DNA from: Lachnospiraceae bacterium
Lineage (GTDB): Bacteria; Bacillota; Clostridia; Lachnospirales; Lachnospiraceae
Assembly: GCA_024405115.1 (NCBI GenBank)
Contig: JAKSPD010000012.1
Coordinates: 1 to 45,515 of the forward strand
Direction: 5' to 3'
DNA: 45,515 bases
The notes under the pieces are model-generated. The model was not told where the DNA came from. It worked only from the letters and a program-made list of their open reading frames with translations, and ran no database searches. The translations under genes were made by a program, and so were the position numbers. Shown here in pieces: positions 5,474-34,461 of this stretch (position 1 is its first letter; each line of letters opens with the position of its first letter).

Positions 5474-5503
5474 TTGCTTTTACTGTGAAAATTGTGGTAT
5501 AAA
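5474..5503 (+). promoter_or_regulatory. Promoter of the EutS-EutS-EutP unit
   Basis: TTGCTT (5474-5479) lies 18 bases before an extended -10, TG-G-TATAAA (5495-5503). Transcription should start near 5510, leaving a leader of about 60 bases. A T7 run (about 5531-5537) lies in that leader with only a poor hairpin before it, so leader attenuation is possible but not shown. Confidence 0.6.
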
Positions 5504-5569
5504 TTCAATCGGAGCAGACTCTGGATGCGCTTTTTTTACAATGTTAACATCTTTGAAGGACATAAAAAA

Positions 5570-5932
5570 ATGAGTGATAAGCCCGAGAAAATTAGAATAG
5601 TTCAGGAAACCGTCTGTGGTAAGGAAATAACCCTTGCTCACGTCATGGGCGGGCCGTCCCCGATTATCTATCAGAAACTGGGACTGAATCCTGACATTGA
5701 TTACAGGACTTCTGCAATCGGCATTATGAACATGACTCCTCCGGAATCAGCCGTTATCGCTTCGGATATAGCCTTAAAGAGCGGTACCATTTATCTTGGA
5801 TTTGCGGACAGATTTACCGGAACGCTCATCATTACTGGTGAGATAGGTGACGTTGAGAGTGCCGTAAGGGAAGTGGTAAGTTACTTTAAGAACATTCTGG
5901 GGTATGTGACCTGTAACGTCACTAAGAAGTGA
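5570..5932 (+). CDS. eutS: EutS-type circularly permuted BMC shell protein (copy 1)
   Basis: The protein has 120 residues. EutS hallmarks are all visible: the GKEITLAHVMGG strand after a short N-terminus, AIGIMNMTPPESAVIASDIALKSG, and LGFADRFTGTLIITGEIGDVESAV. EutS forms bent hexamers in the shell of ethanolamine microcompartments. The ATG at 5570 was chosen because GAAGGA lies 9 bases upstream. A start further upstream at 5492 would fall inside the promoter. The family-conserved DRFxGSL appears here as DRFTGTL. It is the first gene of a three-gene unit and is followed directly by a second EutS-like gene. It differs clearly from the canonical copy at 8560, so it is not a recent duplicate. Confidence 0.9.
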   Translation: MSDKPEKIRIVQETVCGKEITLAHVMGGPSPIIYQKLGLNPDIDYRTSAIGIMNMTPPESAVIASDIALKSGTIYLGFADRFTGTLIITGEIGDVESAVREVVSYFKNILGYVTCNVTKK

Positions 5933-5934
5933 TC

Positions 5935-6372
5935 ATGATAGACGGAAAGAGACTTACAAGAGAAGAACTTCTCGAGAAAATTTTTTCCGCTCACCGTGAG
6001 AACCTTGAAGAAGACCGGTTAAGGATCACCCGTGTGAGAATCCCCGGAAAGGAAATGATGTTTGCAGATATCATCGGACATCCGTCCGACAGGGTGTATG
6101 TGAACCTGGCGCTTAACATAGGTTCACATCAGGGAGAGGACCACAGGGGAGAAAGTATCGGTCTCATGCAGTTTACTCCATGGGAATCGGTCGTGATAGC
6201 TGCAGATGTGGCCACCAAGGAAGCGGATGTGAGCATAGGCTTCATGGATCGCTTCAACGGGTCGCTGATAATTCTTGGCGAGCTTTCAAATGTCCGTACG
6301 GCATGTGAGGGAATAGAAAGGTTCTTCACAAAGGAACTGGGATTTACGTCCACTGGGATTTATGAGGTATGA
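5935..6372 (+). CDS. EutS-like BMC shell protein with N-terminal helical extension (copy 2)
   Basis: The protein has 145 residues. From about residue 35 it is EutS-like: IPGKEMMFADIIGHPSDRVY, IGLMQFTPWESVVIAADVATKE, IGFMDRFNGSLIILGELSNV. It is longer than usual because of an extra N-terminal segment of about 30 residues (GKRLTREELLEKIFSAHREN), predicted to be an amphipathic helix like BMC encapsulation peptides. A loop insertion, GSHQGEDHRGES, is also present. The start is ATG 5935, with AAGAAG 5 bases upstream. GTG 5929, overlapping the previous stop, is an alternative. It overlaps eutP by 4 bases. The extension is unusual for a shell protein and may tether cargo or GTPase to the shell. Confidence 0.85.
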   Translation: MIDGKRLTREELLEKIFSAHRENLEEDRLRITRVRIPGKEMMFADIIGHPSDRVYVNLALNIGSHQGEDHRGESIGLMQFTPWESVVIAADVATKEADVSIGFMDRFNGSLIILGELSNVRTACEGIERFFTKELGFTSTGIYEV

Positions 6373-6860
6373 GAACTCTTTTTCTTATGGGCAGGAGTGA
6401 GGCCGGAAAGACTTCGCTCATGCAGGCCTTAAGGGGCGAAAAACTTCATTATGTAAAGACGCAGTTCACCGGCGTGGACAGGGGCGGAGTTGACACCCCT
6501 GGAGAGTATGCGGAATCAAAAAACGTGGGAGTAGGACTTGCATGCTTTTCATTTGAGGCGGATGTAGCCGCAATCATATGTGCGGCGAACGAACCCTTCT
6601 CAGTATTCGAGCCGAACAACAACTGTTTCCTTAACAGGCCGCTCATAGGCATTATTACGAAGATAGATCTTCCGGATGCAAACGTTCCGATGGTGCGGCA
6701 GTGGATGATAAATTCAGGCTGTGAAAGAGTGTTCTGCGTCAGCAATGTGACCCGGGAGGGCATCGATGAGCTGAAAGAATACCTCTCCCAGGAGACTCCG
6801 AAACTGTCACTTATGGAGGCAATTGAAAAGCAGAACAGGGGCCTCAGGGACTGGGATTAA
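6369..6860 (+). CDS. eutP: EutP/PduV-family P-loop GTPase-like protein (copy 1)
   Basis: The protein has 163 residues. It has a Ras-like fold signature: P-loop GRSEAGKTS near the N-terminus, DTPGEY as the G3 motif, TKIDLP as G4. EutP/PduV proteins associate with BMC loci. Salmonella EutP has been reported to act as an acetate kinase, and PduV has been linked to compartment movement. Which activity applies here is unknown. Its ATG overlaps the stop of the EutS-like gene (ATGA), so it is translationally coupled. It is the last gene of the mini-unit, followed by a terminator at 6916. It is clearly diverged from the second EutP at 8920. Confidence 0.9.
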   Translation: MRTLFLMGRSEAGKTSLMQALRGEKLHYVKTQFTGVDRGGVDTPGEYAESKNVGVGLACFSFEADVAAIICAANEPFSVFEPNNNCFLNRPLIGIITKIDLPDANVPMVRQWMINSGCERVFCVSNVTREGIDELKEYLSQETPKLSLMEAIEKQNRGLRDWD

Positions 6861-7093: not shown

Positions 7094-7408
7094 ATGGCAG
7101 CTGTTACTATAAGAATTATGAAGACGGTTTCGACGGGAACGAAACAGATAATTATGCGCCGCGCCCGTATGGAAAACCTTCCTGTTCTTTTTGAAGAAAA
7201 CTCTGCACTTGCCCTTCTCAACGGAAATGTCACAGACCTTATTTACGCAAGTGATGTTGCCCAGAAGGCTTCGGCCGTACAGGTTTTCGAAATCAGCGGT
7301 AACTGTCCGCAGCATCTCACATGTCTCGCGGTCCTTGGTGACCCGGCAGCAGTCGATGAGGCGGTCAAGGCAATTAAGATCAAGCTATCAGCGGAGGTTG
7401 AACTGTGA
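7094..7408 (+). CDS. Divergent EutS-like (permuted BMC) protein
   Basis: The protein has 104 residues, and its start has AGGAGA 6 bases upstream. It has no clear named family, but it lines up with EutS along its length. TIRIMKTVSTGTKQIIMRRA matches the EutS IIQEFVPGKQITLAH strand. DLIYASDVAQKASAVQVFEI matches the GAIIAADVASKAGGVQIGFV core. LAVLGDPAAVDEAVKAI matches the last helix. The signature DRFNGSL is missing, and its place is taken by GNCPQHL with a Cys that could line a pore. It opens the main operon and overlaps the alcohol dehydrogenase start by 4 bases. It may be a minor shell tile or an adaptor for the dehydrogenase. Function unknown. Confidence 0.75.
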   Translation: MAAVTIRIMKTVSTGTKQIIMRRARMENLPVLFEENSALALLNGNVTDLIYASDVAQKASAVQVFEISGNCPQHLTCLAVLGDPAAVDEAVKAIKIKLSAEVEL

Positions 7409-8559: not shown

Positions 8560-8916
8560 ATGGCTTTTTATGACGAGCACAACAAAGAGCGAATAATTCA
8601 GGAATTCGTCCCCGGCAAGCAGATAACACTTGCACACATAATTCCAAATCCCGTTCCGGACCTGTACGCGAAGATGGGACTTTTAAACGGAAAGGGTGCG
8701 ATCGGAATATTCACCATTACCCCCAGTGAGGGTGCCATTATAGCAGCCGATGTGGCAAGCAAGGCAGGCGGAGTTCAGATAGGTTTTGTGGACAGATTCA
8801 ACGGCTCACTGGTCATAACAGGACAGGTTGGTGAGGTAGAAGCAGCAATGAAGGGCGTTATTGAAGTTTTATGCGACAGGATGGCCTTCGCAAAGCCCAT
8901 AGTAACGAGGTCGTAA
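8560..8916 (+). CDS. eutS: EutS shell protein (canonical copy)
   Basis: The protein has 118 residues, with ribosome site GGGAGG before ATG. It is the closest of the four to textbook EutS: RIIQEFVPGKQITLAHIIPNP, GAIGIFTITPSEGAIIAADVASKAG, IGFVDRFNGSLVITGQVGEVEAAM. It lies between the alcohol dehydrogenase and the second eutP, the usual Firmicute eutS-eutP order. It is three bases apart from eutP. It probably forms the structural bent hexamers of the shell, while the other copies have altered roles. Confidence 0.96.
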   Translation: MAFYDEHNKERIIQEFVPGKQITLAHIIPNPVPDLYAKMGLLNGKGAIGIFTITPSEGAIIAADVASKAGGVQIGFVDRFNGSLVITGQVGEVEAAMKGVIEVLCDRMAFAKPIVTRS

Positions 8917-8919
8917 GTA

Positions 8920-9387
8920 ATGCCCGAAGATTTCAAGACCAGGATCATCCTTATAGGAAGGTCCATGGCAGGTAAAACAACATTAATTCACTATCTTACG
9001 GATGGTGATCTTGGTTACAAAAAGACACAGACAGTTGAGATATTCAACCAGAACATGATAGACACACCCGGTGAATATCTCGAAAGAAGATATTTCAGGG
9101 GAGCCCTGATGGTCACGGCGGCGGATGCAGAGGTAATAGTATTCGTACAGCAGGCCACCGAGCACGGAACAATGTTTCCTCCCGGATACGCCAGCAACTT
9201 TCCAAAGCCCTGCGTAGGAGTGGTCACAAAGGCTGACCTGGCAACACCTGAGGAGATAGAGGACGCAAAGAAATACCTTGAAATAGCGGGAGCTACAAAA
9301 ATCTTCGTTACGTCAAGTTACGAAGGCACAGGATTTGAAGGCTTTATCGAGTACATTGAGGAGGCGGCAGAACAGTGCAGGAAATAA
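8920..9387 (+). CDS. eutP: EutP GTPase-like protein (copy 2)
   Basis: The protein has 155 residues. P-loop GRSMAGKTT, G3 DTPGEY and G4 TKADLA are visible. It is placed between eutS and eutA as in Enterococcus/Clostridium-type eut loci, and it overlaps eutA by 13 bases. It is the syntenic EutP, whereas the copy at 6369 belongs to the separate mini-unit. In this operon no eutD or acetate kinase gene is present, so the reported acetate-kinase activity of the family would be useful here to make ATP from PduL-derived acetyl-phosphate. That is inference. Confidence 0.93.
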   Translation: MPEDFKTRIILIGRSMAGKTTLIHYLTDGDLGYKKTQTVEIFNQNMIDTPGEYLERRYFRGALMVTAADAEVIVFVQQATEHGTMFPPGYASNFPKPCVGVVTKADLATPEEIEDAKKYLEIAGATKIFVTSSYEGTGFEGFIEYIEEAAEQCRK

Positions 9388-10805
9388 TTTTCAGCGTTGG
9401 AATTGACATCGGTACTTCCACTACTCAGCTCATATTCAGCCGGCTGACTATTGAAAATGAAGCAACCAGTTATGTTGTCCCAAGGATCAACATAGTAAAA
9501 AAGGAAGTTATCTACAGAAGTGACATTTACTTCACACCTCTCCTTTCAGCGACAGAGATCGACATGGAGAAGGTAAAGCAGATAATTAAGAAGGAATACG
9601 AAAAGGCCAACATGAAGCCGGAGGACCTCACGACAGGTGCCGTAATCATCACCGGTGAGACTGCAAGAAAGCAGAATGCGAGCATAGTGCTCGAGGCACT
9701 TTCCGAGATGGCAGGTGATTTCGTGGTTGCAACGGCAGGTCCGGACCTTGAGTCAGTCCTTTCAGCTAAAGGCGCAGGAGCAGATGCCATTTCGAAGGAA
9801 GACCGTACGGTTGTAGCGAACCTTGACGTAGGCGGCGGAACCACTAACATCGCATTCTTCAAGGTAGGAGAGCTTAAGGGAACGAGCTGCCTTGACATCG
9901 GCGGAAGGCTGATAAAGATAACGAACGGAAAGATAAGCTACATCTTCCGCGGGACTAAGGAACTGGCAGAGACAAACGGCATCTACATCAACGTAGGCGA
10001 CGATGCAGATGAAAAGAAGCTCTATAAGATTTGTGAACTGATGGCTGACCAGCTTGCAATGGCAATCCACTTAAAGGAGCCGGATGCAATGCATGCAAAG
10101 CTTTACACAAACGCAGGAAAGCCGCTTCCGAAGGAACCGAAAATTCAGGCAATCACATATTCAGGAGGAGTGGCAAGCTGTTATTACGAAGGTGAGCCTG
10201 CAAATGTCTTCCAGTATGGGGACATCGGAGTACTCCTTGCAAGGGCAATTAAGAATAATCCGTCACTGCAGAAGATGAAGACACTTCAGGCAGTCGAAAC
10301 GATAAGGGCAACCGTCGTGGGTGCAGGATCGCATACCACGAGCGTCAGCGGAAGTACGATAGCATACTCAGATGGAAGACTTCCGGTGAAGAACATTCCG
10401 GTACTAAAGTTAAGTGATGACGATGAAAAGAATCCGGAACAGTTCGTTGCAACACTTAAGAGAAAGCTTTCACTTTACAGAAGCGAAGGCAGCCTCGAAC
10501 AGATAGCCATTGTTTTCCCGGGCTATCACCATCAGAGCTTCATGGAAGTTCAGGAGCTTGCAAAGATGGTTGCCGAAGGGGCAAGGGAAATCATTGACGG
10601 ACCATTCCCGCTCATAGTAGTGGTCGAGAATGATATTGCAAAAGTGCTCGGCAATGCACTGAACGTGCTGTTGGAACGTAAAAAACCGTTCGTGTGCATT
10701 GATAGCATATATGCAAATGATGGGGACTACATCGACATCGGCGTGCCGGTTGCCGGAGGACGTGTGGTGCCCGTGGTGATCAAAACACTTATATTTAATT
10801 CTTAA
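9375..10805 (+). CDS. eutA: Ethanolamine ammonia-lyase reactivating factor
   Basis: The protein has 476 residues and starts at GTG with GAGGAGG about 10 bases upstream, inside eutP. It has an actin-like ATPase fold: phosphate-1 motif GIDIGTSTTQLIF near the N-terminus and phosphate-2 motif NLDVGGGTTNIAFF around residue 150. EutA uses ATP to release damaged cobalamin from EutBC so the lyase can take up fresh AdoCbl. Length and placement directly before eutBC match the family. The gene overlaps eutP, showing tight translational coupling. The end of the protein (GVPVAGGRVVPVVIKTLIF) is typical of EutA. Confidence 0.95.
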   Translation: MQEIIFSVGIDIGTSTTQLIFSRLTIENEATSYVVPRINIVKKEVIYRSDIYFTPLLSATEIDMEKVKQIIKKEYEKANMKPEDLTTGAVIITGETARKQNASIVLEALSEMAGDFVVATAGPDLESVLSAKGAGADAISKEDRTVVANLDVGGGTTNIAFFKVGELKGTSCLDIGGRLIKITNGKISYIFRGTKELAETNGIYINVGDDADEKKLYKICELMADQLAMAIHLKEPDAMHAKLYTNAGKPLPKEPKIQAITYSGGVASCYYEGEPANVFQYGDIGVLLARAIKNNPSLQKMKTLQAVETIRATVVGAGSHTTSVSGSTIAYSDGRLPVKNIPVLKLSDDDEKNPEQFVATLKRKLSLYRSEGSLEQIAIVFPGYHHQSFMEVQELAKMVAEGAREIIDGPFPLIVVVENDIAKVLGNALNVLLERKKPFVCIDSIYANDGDYIDIGVPVAGGRVVPVVIKTLIFNS

Positions 10806-10855
10806 ATAAGTGACTGATACCGCAATCGCTTATAAAACAAAAGGAGGGCAAAGAT

Positions 10856-12223
10856 TTGATCTTAAAAACCAAATTACGTGGAAAAGTGTATGAATTCGGT
10901 TCTCTGCGTGAAGTAATGGGAAAAGCCAACGAAGAAAAGTCCGGCGACAAGTTGGCAGGAGTAGGTGCAGCAAGTGTTGAGGAAAGAGTTGCAGCAAAGG
11001 CTGTTCTTTCACACATCACTCTTAAGGACCTTTATGAGACTCCCGCAGTTCCCTACGAGCAGGATGAAGTAACCAGAATCATCATTGATGCTGTAGACCC
11101 CATCGTTTACGCAGGCATCAAGAACTGGACTGTTTCAGAGCTCCGTGAGTGGATCCTTGACACAGCAACAACAGGCGAAATGATCAGGACCGTATCGGCA
11201 GGTCTTACATCAGAGATGGTTTCAGCTGTATGTAAGCTGATGACCAACCTTGATTTGGTCTACGCTGCAAAGAAGCTGAGAGTTCACGCACACTGCAACA
11301 CAACGATCGGTAAGGAGGGAACATTCTCTTCAAGACTTCAGCCGAACCACACCACTGATGATCCCAAGGGTATCCTTGCATCAACAATGGAAGGTCTTTC
11401 ACTCGGCTGTGGTGATGCCGTAATCGGTATCAACCCCGTTGATGACTCCGTAGAGAGCGTTACAAGACTTCTTAATTCACTGACAGATCTCAAGAACAAG
11501 TGGGAGATCCCCACACAGATCTCTGTTCTTGCACACGTTACCACACAGATGGAAGCAGTTGAGAAGTTCGGTGCTCCCACAGACTGCCTGTTCCAGTCGA
11601 TCGCCGGCTCTCAGAAGGGTAACGAAGCATTCGGTCTTACCGCTCAGATGCTGGATGACGGTTATGCAATGATGGTTGAGAAGTCAACCGCTGCAGGTCC
11701 CAACTACCTCTATTTCGAGACAGGACAGGGATCAGAGCTTTCATCAGACGCTCATAACGGCTGGGATCAGCTTACAATGGAAGCAAGATGCTACGGATTC
11801 GCAAAGAGATATCATCCGTTCCTTGTAAACACTGTTGTAGGATTCATCGGACCCGAGTATCTGTATGATTCAAAGCAGGTTACACGTGCAGGTCTTGAGG
11901 ACCACTTCATGGGTAAGCTTACCGGTATCCCGATGGGATGCGATGCATGCTACACCAACCATATGAAGGCTGACCAGAACGACATCGAGAACCTCGCAAC
12001 ACTCCTTGTAGCTGCAGGCTGCAACTACGTAATGGGCGTTCCGCAGGGTGACGACTGCATGCTGATGTATCAGTGCACAGGCTTCCACGAGGCAGCAGCT
12101 CTCCGTGAAGCATTCGGACTTCGTCCCATCAAGGAATTCGACGAGTGGCTCGAGAAGATGGGATTCTCAAAGGACGGAAAGCTTACACCGCTCGCAGGTG
12201 ATGCTTCTGTATTCTTAGCATAA
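10856..12223 (+). CDS. eutB: Ethanolamine ammonia-lyase large subunit
   Basis: The protein has 455 residues, very close to the family's usual 453. The start is TTG 10856, with AAGGAGG 8 bases upstream. It has a TIM-barrel catalytic subunit. Active-site segments known from E. coli EutB are all present: SSRLQPN (Arg and Asn), VIGINPV (Asn), YFETGQGS (catalytic-site Glu), and GCDACYTNHMKADQ (Asp). It binds ethanolamine and, with EutC, AdoCbl, and catalyses radical conversion to acetaldehyde and ammonia. Codon use is strongly biased, consistent with high expression. eutC starts 18 bases after the stop. Confidence 0.98.
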   Translation: MILKTKLRGKVYEFGSLREVMGKANEEKSGDKLAGVGAASVEERVAAKAVLSHITLKDLYETPAVPYEQDEVTRIIIDAVDPIVYAGIKNWTVSELREWILDTATTGEMIRTVSAGLTSEMVSAVCKLMTNLDLVYAAKKLRVHAHCNTTIGKEGTFSSRLQPNHTTDDPKGILASTMEGLSLGCGDAVIGINPVDDSVESVTRLLNSLTDLKNKWEIPTQISVLAHVTTQMEAVEKFGAPTDCLFQSIAGSQKGNEAFGLTAQMLDDGYAMMVEKSTAAGPNYLYFETGQGSELSSDAHNGWDQLTMEARCYGFAKRYHPFLVNTVVGFIGPEYLYDSKQVTRAGLEDHFMGKLTGIPMGCDACYTNHMKADQNDIENLATLLVAAGCNYVMGVPQGDDCMLMYQCTGFHEAAALREAFGLRPIKEFDEWLEKMGFSKDGKLTPLAGDASVFLA

Positions 12224-12241
12224 TATAAGGAGGTGGACATT

Positions 12242-13120
12242 TTGGTAAGCGAGAAAGAATTAAAAGACATTATTGCTCAGGTCCTCTCTGAGATGAATGT
12301 TGCTGCCCCCGCTGAAAAGGCAGCTCCCGCTGCAGCATGTGCTTGTGAAGTTGAAGACGGCTTCATCGAGGATGTTGCAATTATCGACATCAAGAAGCAG
12401 TATCTTGTTGAGAATCCTGTAGCAAGAGACGCTTTCTATGAGCTTAAGCAGTACGCTCCCTGCCGTCTTGGTATCGGCAAGGCAGGTGCACGTTATAAGA
12501 CACTCCCCGTACTTGAGTTCCGTGCAGCACATGCAGCAGCTCAGGACGCCGTATTCAAGGATGTAGATCCCGAAGTAGTAGAAGGTCTTGGACTTTTCTC
12601 AGTTCAGACACAGTGCGACTGCAAGGATACATATCTTACAAGACCTGACCTCGGCCGAGTACTTTCAGATGAAGCTGTAGCAGAGATCAAGTCGAAGTGC
12701 AAGATGAATCCCACAGTTCAGATCTATGTATCTGACGGACTTTCATCAGCTTCAATCGCTGCTAACGTTAAGGACGTTCTTCCCGCAATCCTTCAGGGAC
12801 TTAAGAGCTACGGAATCGATGCAGGAACTCCGTTCTTCGTAAAGTACGGCCGTGTTGGTGCTATGGATCAGATCTCTGAGATCACAGGTGCTGATGTTAC
12901 CTGCGTTCTTATCGGAGAGAGACCCGGCCTTATCACAGCAGAGTCAATGTCAGCATATCTTGCATACAAGGCAACCGTAGGTATGCCCGAAGCAAGAAGA
13001 ACCGTTGTATCAAACATCCATAAGGATGGAACGATCCCGGCTGAAGCAGGTGCTCACATTGCCGATGTTATTAAGAAGATCCTTGATGCTAAGGCATCAG
13101 GAACTGATTTGAAGCTTTAA
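12242..13120 (+). CDS. eutC: Ethanolamine ammonia-lyase small subunit
   Basis: The protein has 292 residues. TTG 12242 was chosen as start because AAGGAGG (12227-12233) lies 8 bases upstream; the in-frame GTG at 12233 overlaps that ribosome site. The first 18 residues (VSEKELKDIIAQVLSEMN) form an amphipathic helix typical of a BMC encapsulation peptide. An Ala/Pro/Cys-rich linker (about 20-40) follows, then the conserved core with LGIGKAGARYKT, the cobalamin-binding region (VQIYVSDGLSSASIAANV) and the tail GERPGLITAESMSAYLAYKA. With EutB it forms the AdoCbl-dependent lyase packaged in the compartment. Confidence 0.97.
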   Translation: MVSEKELKDIIAQVLSEMNVAAPAEKAAPAAACACEVEDGFIEDVAIIDIKKQYLVENPVARDAFYELKQYAPCRLGIGKAGARYKTLPVLEFRAAHAAAQDAVFKDVDPEVVEGLGLFSVQTQCDCKDTYLTRPDLGRVLSDEAVAEIKSKCKMNPTVQIYVSDGLSSASIAANVKDVLPAILQGLKSYGIDAGTPFFVKYGRVGAMDQISEITGADVTCVLIGERPGLITAESMSAYLAYKATVGMPEARRTVVSNIHKDGTIPAEAGAHIADVIKKILDAKASGTDLKL

Positions 13121-13145: not shown

Positions 13146-13823
13146 ATGAAAAGAGATCCTTTACCGGCAACCGTCCTTGCCAGCAAATTGATTCCCAATG
13201 CTACTCCCAAGATGGTTCAGGACCTTATCGCTGCATCAGGCCTTGACATCGAGTACGATCCCGTTCGTCACAGATCACTTGCACTTGTAACAGCTGACTG
13301 CGATGATGTTACATACACAGCTCTTGACGAAGCTACAAAGAAGGCTGACGTTGAAGTTATCTACGCTCGTTCATTCTACGGCGGTGCTGCAAATGCAAAC
13401 ACCAAGCTCGCAGGTGAAATCCTCGGCGTACTTGCAGGACCCAACCCCGCAGAAGCAAGAAGCGGCCTTGAGGCTTGCTGCGACTTCATCGAGAACGAAG
13501 CTCACTTCGTATCAGCAAATGAAGATGACACAATTCCTTACTATGCACACTGCATTTCAAGAACCGGTTCATATCTTTCAAGATCTAACGGTATCGAAGA
13601 AGGCGAAGCAATTGCATACCTTATCGCTCCTCCGCTTGAGGCTATGTATGCAATCGATGCTGCTGTAAAGGCTGCTGATGTTTCTATCATCGCTCTTTAC
13701 AACCCGCCGTCAGAGACCAACTTCGGTGGCGGACTTCTTACAGGCACACAGTCAGCTTGTAAGGCAGCTTGCGACGCATTCGCAGCAGCTGTAGAGTTCG
13801 TAGCTGATCAACCCAAGGAATAA
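13146..13823 (+). CDS. eutL: EutL tandem-BMC trimeric shell protein
   Basis: The protein has 225 residues. ATG 13146 was preferred over TTG 13140 because GGAGGA (13132-13137) is then 8 bases away. It has two permuted BMC domains. Family motifs visible are LGLI-type LALVTADCDDVTYTALDEATKKADVEV, AGPNPAEARSGLEACCDFIE, SRTGSYLS, AIAYLIAPPLEAMYAIDAAVKAADV and PPSETNFGGGLLTGTQSACKAACDAF. EutL trimers have gated pores, in E. coli closed by ethanolamine binding, and are thought to pass large cofactors. Place after eutC is standard. Confidence 0.97.
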   Translation: MKRDPLPATVLASKLIPNATPKMVQDLIAASGLDIEYDPVRHRSLALVTADCDDVTYTALDEATKKADVEVIYARSFYGGAANANTKLAGEILGVLAGPNPAEARSGLEACCDFIENEAHFVSANEDDTIPYYAHCISRTGSYLSRSNGIEEGEAIAYLIAPPLEAMYAIDAAVKAADVSIIALYNPPSETNFGGGLLTGTQSACKAACDAFAAAVEFVADQPKE

Positions 13824-13858: not shown

Positions 13859-14470
13859 ATGAATGCATTAGGAATGATTGAAGTATACGGATACCTTGCA
13901 GCCGTGGAAGCACTTGACAGTGCATTAAAGGCAGCCAATGTAAGAAGAGAGAAGGTTGAACTTGTAACAGGCGGACTTGTTGCCGTACTGGTTACAGGCG
14001 ATGTTGGAGCCGTTAAGGCTGCAATGGATGCTTCTGCAGCAGCTGCTGAAAGAGTCGGTAAGGTCATATCTGTTCACGTTATTCCGAGACCGCACAGCAT
14101 GATAGATGACATGCTCAATGGGCCGAAGGAACCCCCAAAGGCACCCGCACCGGTTGCTCCCAAGGAACCCGAAGCTTCCGCTGAGCCAGAGGTTGTAAAA
14201 GAGCCAGAGCCAGTCATCCCTGAACCTGTAAAGGAACCGGAACCTGCAAAGGAAGCTCCGAAGCCGGCGAAGAAGCCAGCCGAGAAGAAGCCAGCCGCAG
14301 AAAAGAAGCAGACAGATCTTACTCCTGAAACAGTTCAGGGAATGTCAGTTCCGAATCTGAGAGCTCTTGCAAGAGAACTCGATATCGACAACATGACACG
14401 TGCCGAAATCAGGTACGGCAAAAAGGATGAACTGGTCAGAAAGATATCCGAATTCTTAGGATGGGAGTGA
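13859..14470 (+). CDS. EutK-like BMC protein with Pro/Glu/Lys linker and SAP/Rho-N-like tail
   Basis: The protein has 203 residues. Residues 1-80 form a BMC domain starting MNALGMIEVYGYLAAVEALD, close to E. coli EutK. Residues 85-150 are a linker rich in Pro, Glu, Lys and Ala. Residues 155-203 (GMSVPNLRALARELDI, then GKKDELVRKISEFLGW) look like a SAP or Rho N-terminal-type helix-extension-helix, a small nucleic-acid-binding fold. E. coli EutK also has a nucleic-acid-binding-like tail, but of a winged-helix type. So this is a EutK counterpart with a different C-terminal domain. Which face of the shell bears the tail is unknown. ATG 13859 was chosen over the adjacent GTG. It ends 6 bases before eutE. 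Confidence 0.85.
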   Translation: MNALGMIEVYGYLAAVEALDSALKAANVRREKVELVTGGLVAVLVTGDVGAVKAAMDASAAAAERVGKVISVHVIPRPHSMIDDMLNGPKEPPKAPAPVAPKEPEASAEPEVVKEPEPVIPEPVKEPEPAKEAPKPAKKPAEKKPAAEKKQTDLTPETVQGMSVPNLRALARELDIDNMTRAEIRYGKKDELVRKISEFLGWE

Positions 14471-14476
14471 TGACAA

Positions 14477-15952
14477 ATGCAATTATACGATGAAGATTTG
14501 TTATCAGTACAGGAAGTCCGTGAACTCGTAGCCACGGCCAAGAAGGCCCAGGAAGCTTATCAGAGGATGAGCCAGGACCAGGTTGATGCTATCATCAAGT
14601 CAATAGCAGAGGCTGGTGTCCGCAATGCCAGAAGGCTTGCTAAAATGGCACATGAAGAAACAGGCTTCGGTGTTGAAAACGACAAAGTAATTAAAAACGT
14701 ATTCGGCAGCCGCGGTGTTTATGAATCCATCAAGGACATGAAGACCATCGGTATAGTAGATTTTGACGAAGCCAACAAGCTCGTTAAAATTGCCGTTCCT
14801 GTGGGAGTTGTTGCAGGACTTATCCCCTCAACAAACCCGACTTCCACAGTATTTTATAAGGCTGAAATAGCCCTTAAATCGGGTAATGCAATTATTTTCT
14901 CACCGCATCCCAATGCAAAGAACTGCATCATGGAGACCGTTAAAGTCATCAAGGAGGCAATTGCAGAGGCAGGCGGAGACGAGAACCTCGTAAACGTAAT
15001 TACAATACCCACACTGCAGGCAACATCTAACCTTATGCAGCATCCGGACGTTGCAATGATCCTTGCAACAGGCGGAAGCGCAATGGTAAGGGCAGCATAT
15101 TCATCAGGAACACCGGCCATCGGTGTAGGCCCCGGAAACGGCCCCGCTTACATTGAGAAGACTGCAGATGTTCCGACAGCCGTAAAGATGATCTTTGACT
15201 CAAAGACATTTGATAACGGTACGATATGTGCATCAGAACAGTCAGTTGTCTGCGACTATGACATGGTTGACTGCGTTAAGGCAGAAATGGAAAAGCAGGG
15301 TGCTTATTTCCTTAATGATGAGGAGATTACCAAGCTTTCAAAGTTCATCCTTCGTGCAAATGGAACCATGAATCCTGCCATTGTTGGTAAGAGCGCACAG
15401 GTAATCGCAAACCTTGCAGGAATAAAAATCCCTGAGGGTATAAGAGTACTTGTTGCAAAGGAAACAGGAATTGGAAAGGGTCATCCGTATTCAAACGAGA
15501 AGCTCTGCCCCATTCTTGCATTCTATACAGCTGAAGACTACAAGGCAGTATGTGAACTGTGTGAGGAGATCCTTCGTCATCAGGGAGCAGGACATACATT
15601 CGCAATCCATTCTCAGGACCAGAAGGTTATTGAGTACTTCGCAATGCGTATCCCGGCTTCAAGAATCGTAGTCAACTCACCCAGCGCCCTTGGCGGTATC
15701 GGAGCTACAACAAAGCTTCTTCCCTCACTCACACTTGGTTGTGGAGCTATCGGCGGAAGCGCAACATCAGAGAATGTCGGACCTATGCACCTTCTTAACA
15801 TCAAGTATGTTGCATGGGGAATCAAGGACATGGACATCATCCGCAAGGAAGTTAATCAGACGATTGACCAGAAGTGCGAGTGCTGCCAGACCGGCGATGT
15901 TGACGTAGATGCACTTGTTGCTGAAATCGTTAAGAGACTTAAAGCATTATAA
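14477..15952 (+). CDS. eutE: CoA-acylating acetaldehyde dehydrogenase
   Basis: The protein has 491 residues. It has an aldehyde dehydrogenase fold with catalytic Cys in DNGTICASEQ (about residue 255), nucleotide-binding segments AGLIPSTNPTST and ILATGGSAMVRAAYSSGTPAIGVGPGN, and the tail ALGGIGATTKLLPSLTLGCGA of acylating enzymes. It oxidises acetaldehyde with NAD+ and CoA to acetyl-CoA. The C-terminus has a Cys-rich turn (KCECCQTGD) then an amphipathic helix (VDALVAEIVKRLKAL) with the pattern of an encapsulation peptide. Salmonella EutE carries its signal at the N-terminus, so the C-terminal position here differs from that model. Confidence 0.96.
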   Translation: MQLYDEDLLSVQEVRELVATAKKAQEAYQRMSQDQVDAIIKSIAEAGVRNARRLAKMAHEETGFGVENDKVIKNVFGSRGVYESIKDMKTIGIVDFDEANKLVKIAVPVGVVAGLIPSTNPTSTVFYKAEIALKSGNAIIFSPHPNAKNCIMETVKVIKEAIAEAGGDENLVNVITIPTLQATSNLMQHPDVAMILATGGSAMVRAAYSSGTPAIGVGPGNGPAYIEKTADVPTAVKMIFDSKTFDNGTICASEQSVVCDYDMVDCVKAEMEKQGAYFLNDEEITKLSKFILRANGTMNPAIVGKSAQVIANLAGIKIPEGIRVLVAKETGIGKGHPYSNEKLCPILAFYTAEDYKAVCELCEEILRHQGAGHTFAIHSQDQKVIEYFAMRIPASRIVVNSPSALGGIGATTKLLPSLTLGCGAIGGSATSENVGPMHLLNIKYVAWGIKDMDIIRKEVNQTIDQKCECCQTGDVDVDALVAEIVKRLKAL

Positions 15953-15983: not shown

Positions 15984-16268
15984 ATGTCAATTACACAGGC
16001 TTTAGGAATGATTGAGACTAAGGGTCTTGTTGCTTCAATCGAGGCAGCAGATGCTATGGTAAAGGCTGCTAACGTTACCCTTATCGGTAAGGTTCATGTA
16101 GGTGGCGGACTTGTTACAGTTATGGTACGTGGCGATGTAGGAGCTGTTAAGGCTTCTGTAGACGCTGGTGCTGCTGCAGCAGAGCGTGTTGGAGAGCTTA
16201 TCTCTGTTCATGTTATTCCGAGACCACACGAGGAAGTTGAAGGAATTCTTCCGAAGATCGAAGGCTAA
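15984..16268 (+). CDS. eutM: EutM major hexameric BMC shell protein
   Basis: The protein has 94 residues, and AGGAGG lies before ATG. It has a canonical single BMC domain: [58 protein letters not shown]. EutM/PduA-type hexamers are the most abundant shell tiles and form facet sheets with small central pores. The gene is followed by a perfect GC-rich hairpin without T-run, which may stabilise its part of the mRNA and raise its copy number over neighbours. Confidence 0.97.
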
Positions 16269-17786: not shown

Positions 17787-18599
17787 ATGGATTTAAACAG
17801 TATCGAGAGCTATATGAGAAAGGTAAGCGAGTCAGAGCATACCACCTTTAAACCCGAAGGAAGGTTGAAATGTGGGCTCGACCTTGGTACCGCTTATATA
17901 GTAATGGTGGTCCTTGATGAATATGATAACCCGGTTGCCTGCGAAAAAAGGGCAGCCAGCGTCTTAAGGGACGGAGTGGTTGTCGATTTCAAGGGGTCAA
18001 GGGATATTGTAAAGGAACTGAAAGCAAAGCTTGAAGAAAGACTCGGAAGGGAAATTACACAGTGTGCAATAGCAATGCCCGCAGGAACTGAAAGCAGCAC
18101 AAGGACACATGCATATGTGGCTGAGGGTGCAGGCATGGAGGTTACGGCAGTGCTTGATGAACCAAGTGCGGCAAACGCAGTTTACCACATTGAGGATGGT
18201 GTAATCGTTGACGTAGGTGGCGGAACAACAGGACTTGCAATCATTAAAAATGGAGAAGTTGTAGATATTTACGACGAGCCCACAGGAGGAACACATCTTT
18301 CCCTGGTACTTTCCGGAAACTACCACATTCCGTTCGAGGAAGCTGAGAAGATTAAGATGGATTACTCAAAACATGCAGAAATCCTTCCCATCTTAAAGCC
18401 TGTAATCGAAAAGATTGCAACAATCATCAAGAAAAACGTGAACCCTGATGAGATTGATACGATCTATCTTTGCGGAGGTACCTGCTGTCTTACCGGAATG
18501 GAAAAAATAATAGAGAAGGAAACAGGAATCAGGACCATAAAGCCCGAGGATCCGTTCCTTGTCACACCTGCCGGAATAGCAATGAATTGTAAATTATAA
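17787..18599 (+). CDS. eutJ: EutJ actin-like chaperone family protein
   Basis: The protein has 270 residues. It has an Hsp70/FtsA-like ATPase fold: phosphate-1 LKCGLDLGTAYIVMVVLDEY (about 28-47), EPSAANAVYHIEDGVIVDVGGGTTGLAIIKNGEV as the central region, and CGGTCCLTGMEKII as the adenosine motif. EutJ is found in nearly all Eut loci. It is thought to help folding or assembly of compartment enzymes, but its client is not established. It lies between pduL and the flavoprotein-like gene, the order seen in Firmicute eut operons. Confidence 0.94.
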   Translation: MDLNSIESYMRKVSESEHTTFKPEGRLKCGLDLGTAYIVMVVLDEYDNPVACEKRAASVLRDGVVVDFKGSRDIVKELKAKLEERLGREITQCAIAMPAGTESSTRTHAYVAEGAGMEVTAVLDEPSAANAVYHIEDGVIVDVGGGTTGLAIIKNGEVVDIYDEPTGGTHLSLVLSGNYHIPFEEAEKIKMDYSKHAEILPILKPVIEKIATIIKKNVNPDEIDTIYLCGGTCCLTGMEKIIEKETGIRTIKPEDPFLVTPAGIAMNCKL

Positions 18600-29882: not shown

Positions 29883-30998
29883 ATTAAAAGAATAGTTAAA
29901 TGTATGTTCTTTCTGTTTGTGCTGTCTTTTACATGCAGTATGCCGGGGTATGCCGGTGACCTTACGGTATGGATGGAAAGGGCGAAGGAAGTTCAGGCGG
30001 AAATGATGAATCAAAAAGCGGAAAACATACCGGATTCATCAGTGGTCTGTGAAACCAGGGGAAAGGCAGAGGAAAGACTGATAAGCGCGTTTTCAGCATT
30101 AAGTGACGGCAGGCCACGGGAAGTATGGGTAATAGGAAAAGACATCATTCCAGTGGGTACATGCCTTAAGGAACACTTTGGGGAAAACGCTGTCTACTCG
30201 AATGATTCAATGGACATTATTGAAAACAAAGATGGTACATACCACGTACACAGGTTTGTTATTCAGAAGAAGAATTTAAAGGAGGGAAAAGATAATTCAA
30301 TGGATACGTATAAAATGCCGGATGCAAAGAACCACTGGGAGGTGGGGGATGAAACAGGAGCTTTCATTGACGGAAACCCGTATTTTTTTACATGTATTGA
30401 CAGTGATTATAAGGGAGGGGCCCTTTTCCTGTGTAACACAGTGATACCGGCCGATTTTGGAACTGATTATGAAATATATTATTCGCCTGGTCCCATCGGA
30501 TACTTTGGGGAAACAAACGACTATGAGACTTCAAAAATAAGGAGCTTTCTTGACAGTCAGACGGCCTCATACATGAAAAGAAGCCTGATAGGAATAAATG
30601 AATCGGCATCAGGAAGTACCATGGAAGGAAAGTTCGGCGCCACTGACAGCATCGGGGTTAAAAGGTACTCAATAGGCTTTCAGCAGATAACGCAGGGCCT
30701 TTTCATTTTTTCCCTGAACGAGGCAATTATGTATGCTAAATGGCTGTGGCGTTTTGAAGGTTCAGAAAGTGACAACCCAAAGACGGTATTAAGCCCCTTT
30801 TTAAGTGCATACTGGCTCAGGACACCTTACGGAAACGGTTTTGATTATGAAAGTTCAGACATGGTGTATGTGGTTGACCTTGAAAAAGGAAACATTCACC
30901 CGGCGTCAGTCCGTCCCGAATCTTCTGTAGGTGATGATTATACGGACCTGTTCACTGCCGTGGGGATAAGGCCGGCATTTGTTTTGGATAACGACTAA
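29883..30998 (+). CDS. Secreted DUF6273-like protein, probable AUU start
   Basis: The protein has about 371 residues. With ATT 29883 as start it begins MKRIVKCMFFLFVLSFTCSM, a normal signal peptide ending near PGYAGD, and the ribosome site GGGAGG (29869-29874) is 8 bases upstream. Alternatives are ATG 29832, inside comEC, with a poor ribosome site, and ATG 29904, which loses the basic n-region. Residues about 150-371 look like DUF6273: IRSFLDSQTASYMKR, DSIGVKRYSIGFQQ, IFSLNEAIMYAKWLW, AYWLRTPYGNGFDYE, VGIRPAFVLDND. Such domains occur in large secreted clostridial proteins; role unknown. First of four consecutive surface protein genes. Confidence 0.8.
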   Translation: MKRIVKCMFFLFVLSFTCSMPGYAGDLTVWMERAKEVQAEMMNQKAENIPDSSVVCETRGKAEERLISAFSALSDGRPREVWVIGKDIIPVGTCLKEHFGENAVYSNDSMDIIENKDGTYHVHRFVIQKKNLKEGKDNSMDTYKMPDAKNHWEVGDETGAFIDGNPYFFTCIDSDYKGGALFLCNTVIPADFGTDYEIYYSPGPIGYFGETNDYETSKIRSFLDSQTASYMKRSLIGINESASGSTMEGKFGATDSIGVKRYSIGFQQITQGLFIFSLNEAIMYAKWLWRFEGSESDNPKTVLSPFLSAYWLRTPYGNGFDYESSDMVYVVDLEKGNIHPASVRPESSVGDDYTDLFTAVGIRPAFVLDND

Positions 30999-31008
30999 CG
31001 GAGGGAGT

Positions 31009-34000
31009 ATGAAAAGAATTTTTTCAGCCATGATGGCGGTTTTACTGTTTCTTGTATCTTCTGTAACGGCGTTTGCCGATGAAACGGCTGAGATATATAA
31101 GGATACAGATATTATTGCGGTGGAAGTTGAGAATGTCACTGAAGGGGTATATGAAACAGCTACCCCTTCAGAGTTTTCCAATTCCGTTTTGCTGGGCACA
31201 TCGGCACTTGGAGACAGATGGGAAGGCTGGGATGAGTATGCCACGGATTTATATAAGCCGCTTGGAGAAGGGACTGCTGACATGCCGTACGGAATAAGAA
31301 CCCCGGGGAATCTGATGTGGCTTTCTGTTAACGTGGCAAAGGGGACCCCGGGAGTTTCTACCGCACATTACATACTTCAGAATGACATTGATCTTACAGT
31401 CGTGGCAACTGCTTCCGGAGACGGTGACTGGAACCCCATAGGCTGGTACCAGAACAGGAGCACCCCTGATACGTTTAATGCATTTAAGGGAACTTTTGAC
31501 GGTAACGGTTACACGGTTACGGGTTTATATATTTCCGACCCGGACGGAAGCAGGAAAAAATATGTGGGACTGTTCGGGGTTCTTAACGGAGCGGTGATAA
31601 GGAATCTGAATGTTACGGGGGCATATGTAAAAGGTTATGACCACGTGGGGCTTCTGTGCGGCATGGCTGTTGGTACCACGGAACTTCACGACGTGACGGT
31701 ATCGGGATTTGCGGGATCAGCTTCATTGGTAAGTGAAACAGCAGACCTGGGCGGAATTGCCGGCAGCGTGAAAGGAAACGGTACAGGGGCATCGGAGTCA
31801 GTGGTACTTGAAAACTGCAGCGCCGTAAATTTCAGTGCATATTCAAATGGTTCGGTGTCATCCATCGGGGGAATTGCGGGAAAGGCTGAAAATGCATACA
31901 TAGTGGATTCGTTCGTACAGGCAGGCTCGACATCGGTTAAAGGTACCGGATATGTGGGAGGAATTGTAGGAGAGCAGGTAAATACCTGTATTTATAACGC
32001 TTATATAAATGGAACGGTCGGAGGTTCTGGAACGCTTGCGGCCGGCGGAGTGACGGGAAAGTTCTGTTCAGGTGAAATATTCCTCATACAGATGGATGGC
32101 TCGATAGGATCCACCAATCAGGTAGTGGCACACGAGGGGATATTTGTAGGAACCAGGGACGCATCGTCTGGCCTTACGTTAGGAAACACAAAGACAGACA
32201 ACATGGCGTATCTCTTTTATGATGAGGAACTGAACGGATGGCCGTTGTCAGCCTCCGGGTTAAGCAGGGATTCGCGAAGTGAAACCCGTTCCGCCCATGT
32301 GGGATTCTGGACATCCAATGAACTCAAGTACTCGCTTACAGAAGGGTCAAATGAATTTCCCTGCGGCGATGACAGGTATTTTTATGAGGAACTTGAGGAT
32401 GGTGTAAGGTTCATAATTACCGAAAAGCTTAACCGCAAGTTTTCGGTAAACGACTATGATAAAGGACTCAGGTTCAGTATTGACCATTTTGCCCCTGGCG
32501 TATCAGGCTCTCCCGTAAAAGGGCATCTTCTTTCAATTCCGCAGATCAATTCCCGCAACTCATCTGACTATGACGTGGCATATCTTACAGCCATTGCAGG
32601 GGGCGGAAGCATTTATTACAAGGTGATGGACAAGGAGAGTGCCGGGGCGGTTGCCCCGGGGACGCTGGTCACGGTAACGAGCAGTTCAAAAAATGACAGG
32701 GCTAACGGCAAGTACTTCCAGAGGGTGGTTGATGAAACCGTAAGTCCGGAAAAGGCAGTGCGCCCGACCTATACGGATGCCTCCGGAGGCGTTGTTGAGG
32801 TATTTGAAATGGACTATCAGTCCGGAGGTGCATATACCTTCATAATGCCAAACAGCGACACTGAGATAAACATCCTTTATGAAAAAGTGCTGTCAGAGGT
32901 AATAACAGATCCGCTTTCAACATCGTTTTCGGTTACTGAAATACGCACCGGGGACCGCAAAAATCCTGACATTACATGGAACATTTCTGATGAAAACGGA
33001 CACTCGCTATGTACAAATGTTTCGAAAAAAAGGACTGAAGGCAATCCGCTTACTGAACAGATGCTGCTGACATCTGAGGTGACGCCGGTTGACGTCAGTG
33101 TCATTTTCAACAGTGTTTCATCAGACAATAAGGTAATGTGGTCGATTGACGATCCTTCACTGATAAGCATTGAAGGGACCGATACGGGATACACCGGAAG
33201 CTCCGCAAAAATACGGCCGGTGCCGGATATGGGAAATACCTGGCTGCTTTCGGTTTTAAGCCGTCTTGAAAAGACACAGGCAGAAAGCGGATATGCATTG
33301 ACAATTCCTTCGACGGAATACGAGAAGAGTGCGGTCCTGACAGCCACTACTGACCCTGAACACTCAATAAACAATAAGGCACAGTATGCGCACTGCACAG
33401 TGACGTTCAAGTTCAAGGTGATTGATGAGACTTCACTGCTGGCTGAGGATGTGGCCGTCAGCAGGGATAAAGTGGCTTTTAATGTCATCAGGAAATTAAG
33501 CGGAAAAAGGTATGCCCCAAAGGAAACCTTTGAAGTGACCGGCCCTGAGTCCGTCATCGCCATGGTAATCCCGGATGGAGCGGACATTAAGAATGTGACA
33601 TGGGAGCTGACGGGAGATGCGGCTTCATCATTAAGGTCTTCAGTATCAGGAGAATATGGGCAGAGCATCCTTATTTCACAGGTTTTCAATTCTTCGGATA
33701 TCACGACCCTTCCTGCGTGGATGAAGGAAATCTATGAAAAAGACAATCAGATCAGGATGAATGACAAAAACGCAGTACTAAATGGAAATGGCACAAGGTC
33801 AGGCAAAATCACCGTTACAGCGGTGGACAGGGAACTGGGAATACATAAGGCTTCCTGTGTTTTAACGGTGAGCTACAGCACATCTGATGAGACAAGGATA
33901 AGTTCCGGGGGATCTTCCGGGTCTTCAGGAGGCGGCGGAGTCTCCGGCGGAGGAACAACCACTACAAAATCGACAAAAGGAAGTGTCACAGGACTTCCAT

Positions 34001-34461
34001 CGTATGTGGTGGGCGGAAACTGGTCACTTGGCGGAAACGGAATGTGGCGCTTTGCCTCTACTGACGGGCATACATACACCTCTGAATGGGGGGCGATTTA
34101 CAATCCGTATGCAGGAAACGGGCAGGCACAGTTTGACTGGTTTTCATTTGATTCTGATTCAAACATGAGAACAGGCTGGTTTACTGATTCTGACGGGGAA
34201 GTATATTACCTTTTTGAAAAAAGCGACGGAACGCTCGGGCACATGGTTGTCGGGTATCAGTACATTGATGGATTCTGGTATTACTTTCAGGAGAAATCAG
34301 ACGGGCATAGGGGAAGGCTCATAAAAAACGGATACACGCCAGCTGGCGAGCCGACCGGCCCTGACGGGCGTGTGCTCATCAGCGCTATACCGGTGAATGA
34401 CCCTGTGGCATTTACGGAAACAAAAAACACGACCGAAAGCCTAAAGGCTGCAGGCATCTGA
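31009..34461 (+). CDS. Secreted protein with GLUG repeats and cell-wall-binding tail
   Basis: The protein has 1,150 residues, from ATG 31009 behind GGAGGGAG. The signal peptide ends at about AFA-DE (23/24). Residues about 90-350 hold GLUG-type repeats (FKGTFDGNGYTVTGLYI, KYVGLFGVLNGAVIRNLNVTG, LGGIAGSVKGNG, YVGGIVGEQVN), a beta-solenoid pattern. The middle (350-950) has unassigned beta-rich domains, including stretches resembling bacterial Ig-like folds. A Gly/Ser linker (about 965-985) leads to cell-wall-binding repeats (994-1120: GGNGMWRFASTDGHTYTSEWG, MRTGWFTDSDGEVYYL, GYQYIDGFWYYF). These are typical of Lachnospiraceae surface proteins held non-covalently to the wall. Ligand unknown. Confidence 0.85.
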   Translation: MKRIFSAMMAVLLFLVSSVTAFADETAEIYKDTDIIAVEVENVTEGVYETATPSEFSNSVLLGTSALGDRWEGWDEYATDLYKPLGEGTADMPYGIRTPGNLMWLSVNVAKGTPGVSTAHYILQNDIDLTVVATASGDGDWNPIGWYQNRSTPDTFNAFKGTFDGNGYTVTGLYISDPDGSRKKYVGLFGVLNGAVIRNLNVTGAYVKGYDHVGLLCGMAVGTTELHDVTVSGFAGSASLVSETADLGGIAGSVKGNGTGASESVVLENCSAVNFSAYSNGSVSSIGGIAGKAENAYIVDSFVQAGSTSVKGTGYVGGIVGEQVNTCIYNAYINGTVGGSGTLAAGGVTGKFCSGEIFLIQMDGSIGSTNQVVAHEGIFVGTRDASSGLTLGNTKTDNMAYLFYDEELNGWPLSASGLSRDSRSETRSAHVGFWTSNELKYSLTEGSNEFPCGDDRYFYEELEDGVRFIITEKLNRKFSVNDYDKGLRFSIDHFAPGVSGSPVKGHLLSIPQINSRNSSDYDVAYLTAIAGGGSIYYKVMDKESAGAVAPGTLVTVTSSSKNDRANGKYFQRVVDETVSPEKAVRPTYTDASGGVVEVFEMDYQSGGAYTFIMPNSDTEINILYEKVLSEVITDPLSTSFSVTEIRTGDRKNPDITWNISDENGHSLCTNVSKKRTEGNPLTEQMLLTSEVTPVDVSVIFNSVSSDNKVMWSIDDPSLISIEGTDTGYTGSSAKIRPVPDMGNTWLLSVLSRLEKTQAESGYALTIPSTEYEKSAVLTATTDPEHSINNKAQYAHCTVTFKFKVIDETSLLAEDVAVSRDKVAFNVIRKLSGKRYAPKETFEVTGPESVIAMVIPDGADIKNVTWELTGDAASSLRSSVSGEYGQSILISQVFNSSDITTLPAWMKEIYEKDNQIRMNDKNAVLNGNGTRSGKITVTAVDRELGIHKASCVLTVSYSTSDETRISSGGSSGSSGGGGVSGGGTTTTKSTKGSVTGLPSYVVGGNWSLGGNGMWRFASTDGHTYTSEWGAIYNPYAGNGQAQFDWFSFDSDSNMRTGWFTDSDGEVYYLFEKSDGTLGHMVVGYQYIDGFWYYFQEKSDGHRGRLIKNGYTPAGEPTGPDGRVLISAIPVNDPVAFTETKNTTESLKAAGI

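Follow-up and report, generated by a model that had tools for sequence, protein, structure and literature searches.

A Rho_N/SAP-type helix-extension-helix domain on the EutK-position shell protein of a clostridial ethanolamine microcompartment and its possible role as a nucleic-acid tether

In a clostridial ethanolamine utilization (eut) operon, the shell protein encoded directly after EutL almost certainly ends in a Rho_N/SAP-type helix-extension-helix (HeH) domain, a homolog of the Rho N-terminus. On balance, we favour the view that this tail would face outward and, with several copies acting together, tether the compartment to nucleic acid and so position it. The operon lies in a 45,515-nucleotide stretch of a Lachnospiraceae bacterium (contig JAKSPD010000012.1, assembly GCA_024405115.1; hereafter the window), and the gene in question encodes a bacterial microcompartment (BMC) domain, a linker and the HeH tail (Table 1). 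The C-terminal domain of EutK has been called “mysterious” (PMC5821096), and a nucleic-acid-related role for enteric EutK has already been proposed (PMC5821096, PMC12058022, PMC12487888). Among the open-access papers listed, and in passages of Listeria, Clostridioides difficile and catalogue papers, no statement was found that a Gram-positive EutK carries a Rho_N or SAP domain, and the passages describing the Listeria and C. difficile EutK proteins leave the tail domain unmentioned (PMC8547011, PMC3483176). The present analysis adds a second, unrelated domain of nucleic-acid type at the same gene position. Its carriers come from at least 17 named genera, and they mostly retain its basic residues. 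Two unrelated tails turn a guess drawn from a single lineage into a comparative and testable argument for convergence.

Taken as a single sequence, the window tail is only suggestive of this assignment, because its Pfam matches to Rho_N (E 2.8e-4, 21.2 bits) and SAP (E 0.0035, 17.4 bits) both fall below the gathering cut-offs of 24.9 and 23.9 bits, respectively. The homology of its relatives' tails settles the identity. Among 28 tails including that of the window (L114, nearly a duplicate of L112, was not included in the 28-row alignments), Pfam matches at E<=1 comprise Rho_N in 23, SAP in 19 and HeH/LEM in four, and alignment of the tail profile with the N-termini of seven clostridial proteins, all of them Rho by Pfam, gives an hhalign probability of 95.7% (E 9.6e-9). 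A profile built from 27 tails, with the window excluded, recovers the window tail from its own genome at E 2.9e-12 and has no other match at E<=10 in that 1.97-Mb, 79% complete assembly. Additionally, the tail modelled alone with AlphaFold2 (AF2; predicted local distance difference test score, pLDDT, 84.7) forms helices at residues 9-14, 17-27, 34-39 and 42-53 of the translation of window positions 14300-14467, and the predicted fold aligns best with the Rho N-terminus; another match is PIAS-1, in a structure titled p53-binding domain. The initial annotation, made from the window sequence, had described the tail as SAP/Rho-N-like, and Pfam, hhalign and the HeH fold obtained by structure prediction agree in upholding that description.

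The same homology invites a reading in which the tail would bind eut mRNA or nascent transcripts, localizing translation and shell assembly or affecting termination, instead of holding the nucleoid. The closest homolog found is indeed the N-terminus of Rho, and plant RHON1, which carries a Rho-N domain, is listed as an RNA-binding protein. However, Rho makes its main RNA contacts through the OB fold that follows its N-terminal domain, and the shell protein lacks that fold; moreover, the subunit occurs in glycyl-radical loci (one of them annotated as cut) as well as in eut loci, so that a eut-specific RNA target is unlikely, and we consider this reading quite improbable.

The open reading frame (ORF) and coordinates given in the initial annotation are exact, and its observation as a whole holds. 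Pfam places a single BMC domain in the protein (PF00936, aa 3-78, E 2.7e-23). The full-length AF2 model, built from the 28-row alignment (mean pLDDT 83.5; predicted template modelling score 0.46), shows a BMC part with block means of 92-98 over aa 1-80 and a non-permuted order, a linker whose block means are merely 52-69 across aa 91-150, and tail helices at 156-160, 164-174, 181-186 and 189-200. A congeneric relative is 59% identical, matching aa 1-200. The annotation had also stated that the BMC domain matches EutK; here NCBIfam scores run the other way, with 87.8 bits for EutM and 77.6 bits for EutK, both below cut-off (218 bits for the EutK equivalog). The name “EutK-like” rests on gene position and not on the BMC score: placement directly after eutL is common to enteric eutK and to the window gene, and in this positional sense the protein is the EutK subunit of an ethanolamine microcompartment in a member of the Clostridia.

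The BMC-linker-HeH layout is widespread. From 59 ORFs of the collected loci, 51 distinct proteins were retained after removal of same-genome copies present in two collections, and a further carrier (L032) stands outside this set. A eutL gene lies <=200 bp upstream in 46 of the 51, and a eutE-type aldehyde dehydrogenase gene lies <=300 bp downstream in the same number. The carriers fall within the Clostridia, Bacilli, Halanaerobiaceae and Endozoicomonadaceae and include Maledivibacter, Geosporobacter, Natronincola, Lutispora, Oceanirhabdus, Petrocella, Halanaerobium and Acetoanaerobium, the gammaproteobacterial Kistimonas and Endozoicomonas, and the EutK proteins of Listeria monocytogenes and C. 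difficile. In the three carriers whose annotation was checked (those of Listeria, C. difficile and E. raffinosus), the product is labelled “BMC domain-containing protein”. Three carriers reside in glycyl-radical loci (E. raffinosus by annotated cutC/cutD, L079 and L080 by PFL-like/glycyl-radical enzymes), and the tail is therefore not tied to ethanolamine. In a class-level sample EutL was present in 23 of 391 genomes; removal from its 26 EutL places of one cut by a contig end (L144), five without adjoining eutABC (L139-L143) and two weak ones left 18 uncut eutABC-L loci. The tail was identified by profile in 14 of these 18, of which nine had contributed to the profile and five (L130, L131, L132, L136 and L137) had not, and in L136 EutM sits between eutL and the tail gene. 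The survey of clostridial EutK-like C-terminal domains proposed with the initial annotation thus finds the HeH domain to be recurrent.

At the same gene position, enteric EutK carries something else. Klebsiella EutK matches EutK_C (PF16365) at E 6.3e-25, a family listed neither for the window protein at E<=10 nor for any of the 28 tails at E<=1, and hhalign of the HeH tails against two enteric EutK tails returned 0.1% over one column, with no relation detected. By these sequence comparisons, the HeH tail and the enteric EutK_C domain are different and unrelated, as the initial annotation had supposed. Its further suggestion, of independent acquisition on the same shell subunit, stands in part: two unrelated tails do occupy one gene position, but a BMC-domain tree of 86 rows by 97 columns leaves 40 of its 81 inner branches open and so lacks the resolution to show whether the BMC parts, apart from EutM, go back to one ancestral subunit shared with enteric EutK. 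The earlier interpretation holds for the type of domain and its unrelatedness to EutK_C, and by half for independent acquisition on one subunit. In Fusobacterium and Cetobacterium (L128:11515-11961 and L129:11543-11974), the BMC protein directly after eutL has no folded tail, no second domain above cut-off, and a short basic end (SKNKKTKSKK and NRRDKTKK); the last 15 residues carry charges of +6 and +4, and the whole post-BMC parts -1 and -7. An EutK homolog was stated not to be found in F. nucleatum (PMC11796344). Lys-rich ends resembling the fusobacterial ones also occur in L042 and L045. Separately, in E. coli STEC411 (L145:4577-5082) eutK is unannotated and its frame is split into two overlapping frames, whereas in three other E. 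coli records the match is unbroken.

Charge and conservation bear on what the tail might bind. Counted on up to 47 residues each, the 51 tails have a mean net charge of +3.7 (44 positive, five zero, two negative), whereas the C-terminal ends of 521 further ORFs in these loci average +0.05. The linkers that precede the tails are acidic (mean -8.7, negative in 49 of 51, and -2 in the window). Basic residues are found, out of 51 tails, at positions R168 (51), R172 (48), R185 (42), K188 (40), K189 (51), K163 (39) and R181 (37); the window protein keeps six of these seven mostly basic positions, the exception being Ser at 163. For comparison, the N-terminal 47 residues of seven of eight Rho proteins carry -3 to +1 (the eighth, at +8, has a doubtful start), and at the level of sequence the shell tails are shifted towards basic charge relative to them. 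Surface charge had been named initially as a possible refutation, and the outcome is mixed: the family is compatible with nucleic-acid binding, although the window tail itself is neutral. An inert or assembly-only extension, serving as a spacer or as a solubility or capping element with no binding role, would accord with the loss of the tail in L135 and with the highly variable length of the linker (17-133 residues, median 59). We give it very little credence, since the domain is conserved over the Clostridia, Bacilli, Halanaerobiaceae and Endozoicomonadaceae while the linker drifts: R, A, R and L do not vary across the 28 tails aligned, and all 51 tails have a basic residue at both R168 and K189.

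In the mechanism that we favour, hexamers of the BMC domain, either pure or including EutM, would be built into the shell. The C-terminus of a non-permuted BMC-H protein emerges on the outer side (concave faces and both termini of such proteins are found at the shell exterior; PMC6787980), and each hexamer would accordingly extend up to six HeH domains into the cytosol, on arms that are flexible and for the most part acidic. Each HeH domain might bind nucleic acid weakly and with little sequence preference; jointly they would anchor compartments to the nucleoid, or else to mRNA or polysomes, and thereby spread and position them within the cell. In enteric EutK an unrelated domain of winged-helix type would serve this purpose. 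In Salmonella, Eut compartments become largely polar and less mobile when eutK is deleted; that study proposes a ParB-like, nucleotide-binding tail for EutK (PMC12487888).

Several points weigh against a nucleic-acid tether. The window tail has a net charge of 0, seven of the 51 tails are neutral or negative, and 9.8% of the background C-termini reach the mean tail charge or exceed it; the near-neutral or acidic Rho N-termini indicate, furthermore, that the HeH fold needs no basic surface. The tail is dispensable, being absent by profile from four of the 18 class loci: L134 has a degenerate HeH by eye and its congener L135 has none, and L133 and L138 have no BMC-H directly after eutL. HeH folds also bind proteins, as in LEM domains. 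Listeria EutK-mCherry forms immobile puncta (as told in PMC11334477), which would fit a tether but reveal no link to DNA. Finally, PduK of Salmonella is likewise credited with a role in localization (PMC12487888), and no HeH was found in the PduK-type proteins of the loci collected here (L117-L121, L123).

The protein-binding capacity of HeH folds underlies another explanation, in which the tail docks a Eut protein or a cytosolic partner, for example EutE, EutQ or the actin/Hsp70-like EutJ-type protein, in the manner of LEM or of the peripheral subunit-binding domain that 2-oxoacid dehydrogenase E2 carries on its Pro/Ala-rich arm. We regard docking as unlikely, with 44 of 51 tails basic and R/K positions conserved, with Rho as the best match by both profile and fold, and with a C-terminus expected on the cytosolic side rather than near the enzymes of the lumen. 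Nor does Pfam list an E3-binding match for the window tail at E<=10, and this peripheral subunit-binding family is absent from the 22 families matched by any of the 28 tails at E<=1.

Table 1. The EutK-position shell gene, its domains and adjoining eut genes in the window.
Feature	Position	Strand	Basis or remark
eutK-position BMC-H shell gene with HeH tail	13859..14470	+	203 aa plus stop; ATG 13859, stop ends 14470
BMC (PF00936) domain, aa 1-87	13859..14119	+	canonical strand/helix order, not circularly permuted
Pro/Lys/Glu-rich linker, aa 88-155, predicted disordered	14120..14323	+	pLDDT, charge
Helix-extension-helix tail, Rho_N/SAP type, aa 156-203	14324..14467	+	conserved basic R168, R172, R181, R185, K188, K189
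eutL (EutL shell protein), directly upstream of shell gene	13155..13823	+	TIGR04502 E 3.9e-99, over cut-off
eutE-type acetylating aldehyde dehydrogenase, directly downstream	14477..15952	+	Listeria relative sits at annotated acetaldehyde dehydrogenase, same order
eutA, eutB, eutC	9375..13120	+	order as annotated eutA, eutB, eutC of Listeria, C. difficile
EutM-type BMC-H, 94 aa, no tail	15984..16268	+	NCBIfam EutM E 1.1e-37, 128.3 bits, just below 133 cut-off

The front of the window operon encodes four short BMC-type proteins (5492-5932, 5929-6372, 7094-7408 and 8560-8916), of which the first is EutS-like by NCBIfam and the other three have a Pfam BMC match that begins at residue 46-76, together with two EutP/PduV GTPases (6369-6860 and 8920-9387); the arrangement looks like a duplicated front module. 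An EutJ-type protein of actin/Hsp70 fold (17787-18599; PilM, MreB, FtsA and HSP70 matches), also in the operon, is a possible partner in compartment placement. Outside the operon lie two probable surface proteins: one of 3244 aa close to the end of the contig (35741-45475), in which four stretches are SpaA (prealbumin-like), and one of 1160 aa (30979-34461) that weakly matches choline-binding repeats. Among the survey loci, L138 has a eutA-B-C-L locus followed by a membrane-type protein, with no BMC-H detected after eutL, and in L040, L043, L044, L046 and L047 the frame of an EutM-like BMC-H reaches upstream into a Lys-rich N-terminal stretch of ~40-70 residues, which may be an overlapping frame or a real extension.

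Among known systems, the tail resembles Rho_N, SAP and HeH/LEM domains in fold and in sequence profile. The segment separating its main helices is approximately five residues longer than in Rho and includes a short additional helix (aa 181-186), and Rho's RNA-binding domain does not follow the tail. The EutK proteins of L. monocytogenes and C. difficile, so named in the literature (PMC8547011, PMC3483176), are of one kind with the window protein and share the BMC, linker and HeH layout and the gene order (profile E 1.8e-16 and 1.9e-10 in a search of seven proteins). Enteric EutK (E. coli, Salmonella, Klebsiella) likewise joins a single BMC domain to a C-terminal domain of nucleic-acid-binding type and follows eutL, but its own tail is of helix-turn-helix type, and the next gene in the Klebsiella and E. 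coli stretches examined is eutR rather than eutE. PduK, too, combines a BMC-H domain, a long linker and a small C-terminal module, which in its case is a Cys motif in place of HeH (see also PMC12058022); the PduK-type proteins of the surveyed loci end in CNxCxDxxC...C...H. More tentatively, an exposed shell subunit of Eut and choline compartments may have been fitted with unrelated nucleic-acid-binding domains according to lineage, namely a Rho-type HeH in Firmicutes and Endozoicomonadaceae, a winged helix in enterics and a basic disordered end in fusobacteria, and direct tethering could then be a general, ParA-independent means of placement. The positioning system of carboxysomes is McdAB. 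It offers a works-like analogy only, in which an adaptor fastens an organelle to the nucleoid (named in PMC12487888), and differs in that no ParA/McdA-type Pfam match at E<=1e-4 was obtained among the 20 ORFs scanned in window positions 390-25993 (four of them without any match), the range covered for this genome, in a search that did not extend to McdB itself; no carboxysome-type positioning pair is thus seen beside the shell gene. If the HeH tail does tether the shell to nucleic acid, it would help to explain how cells distribute catabolic microcompartments for which no McdAB pair is evident.
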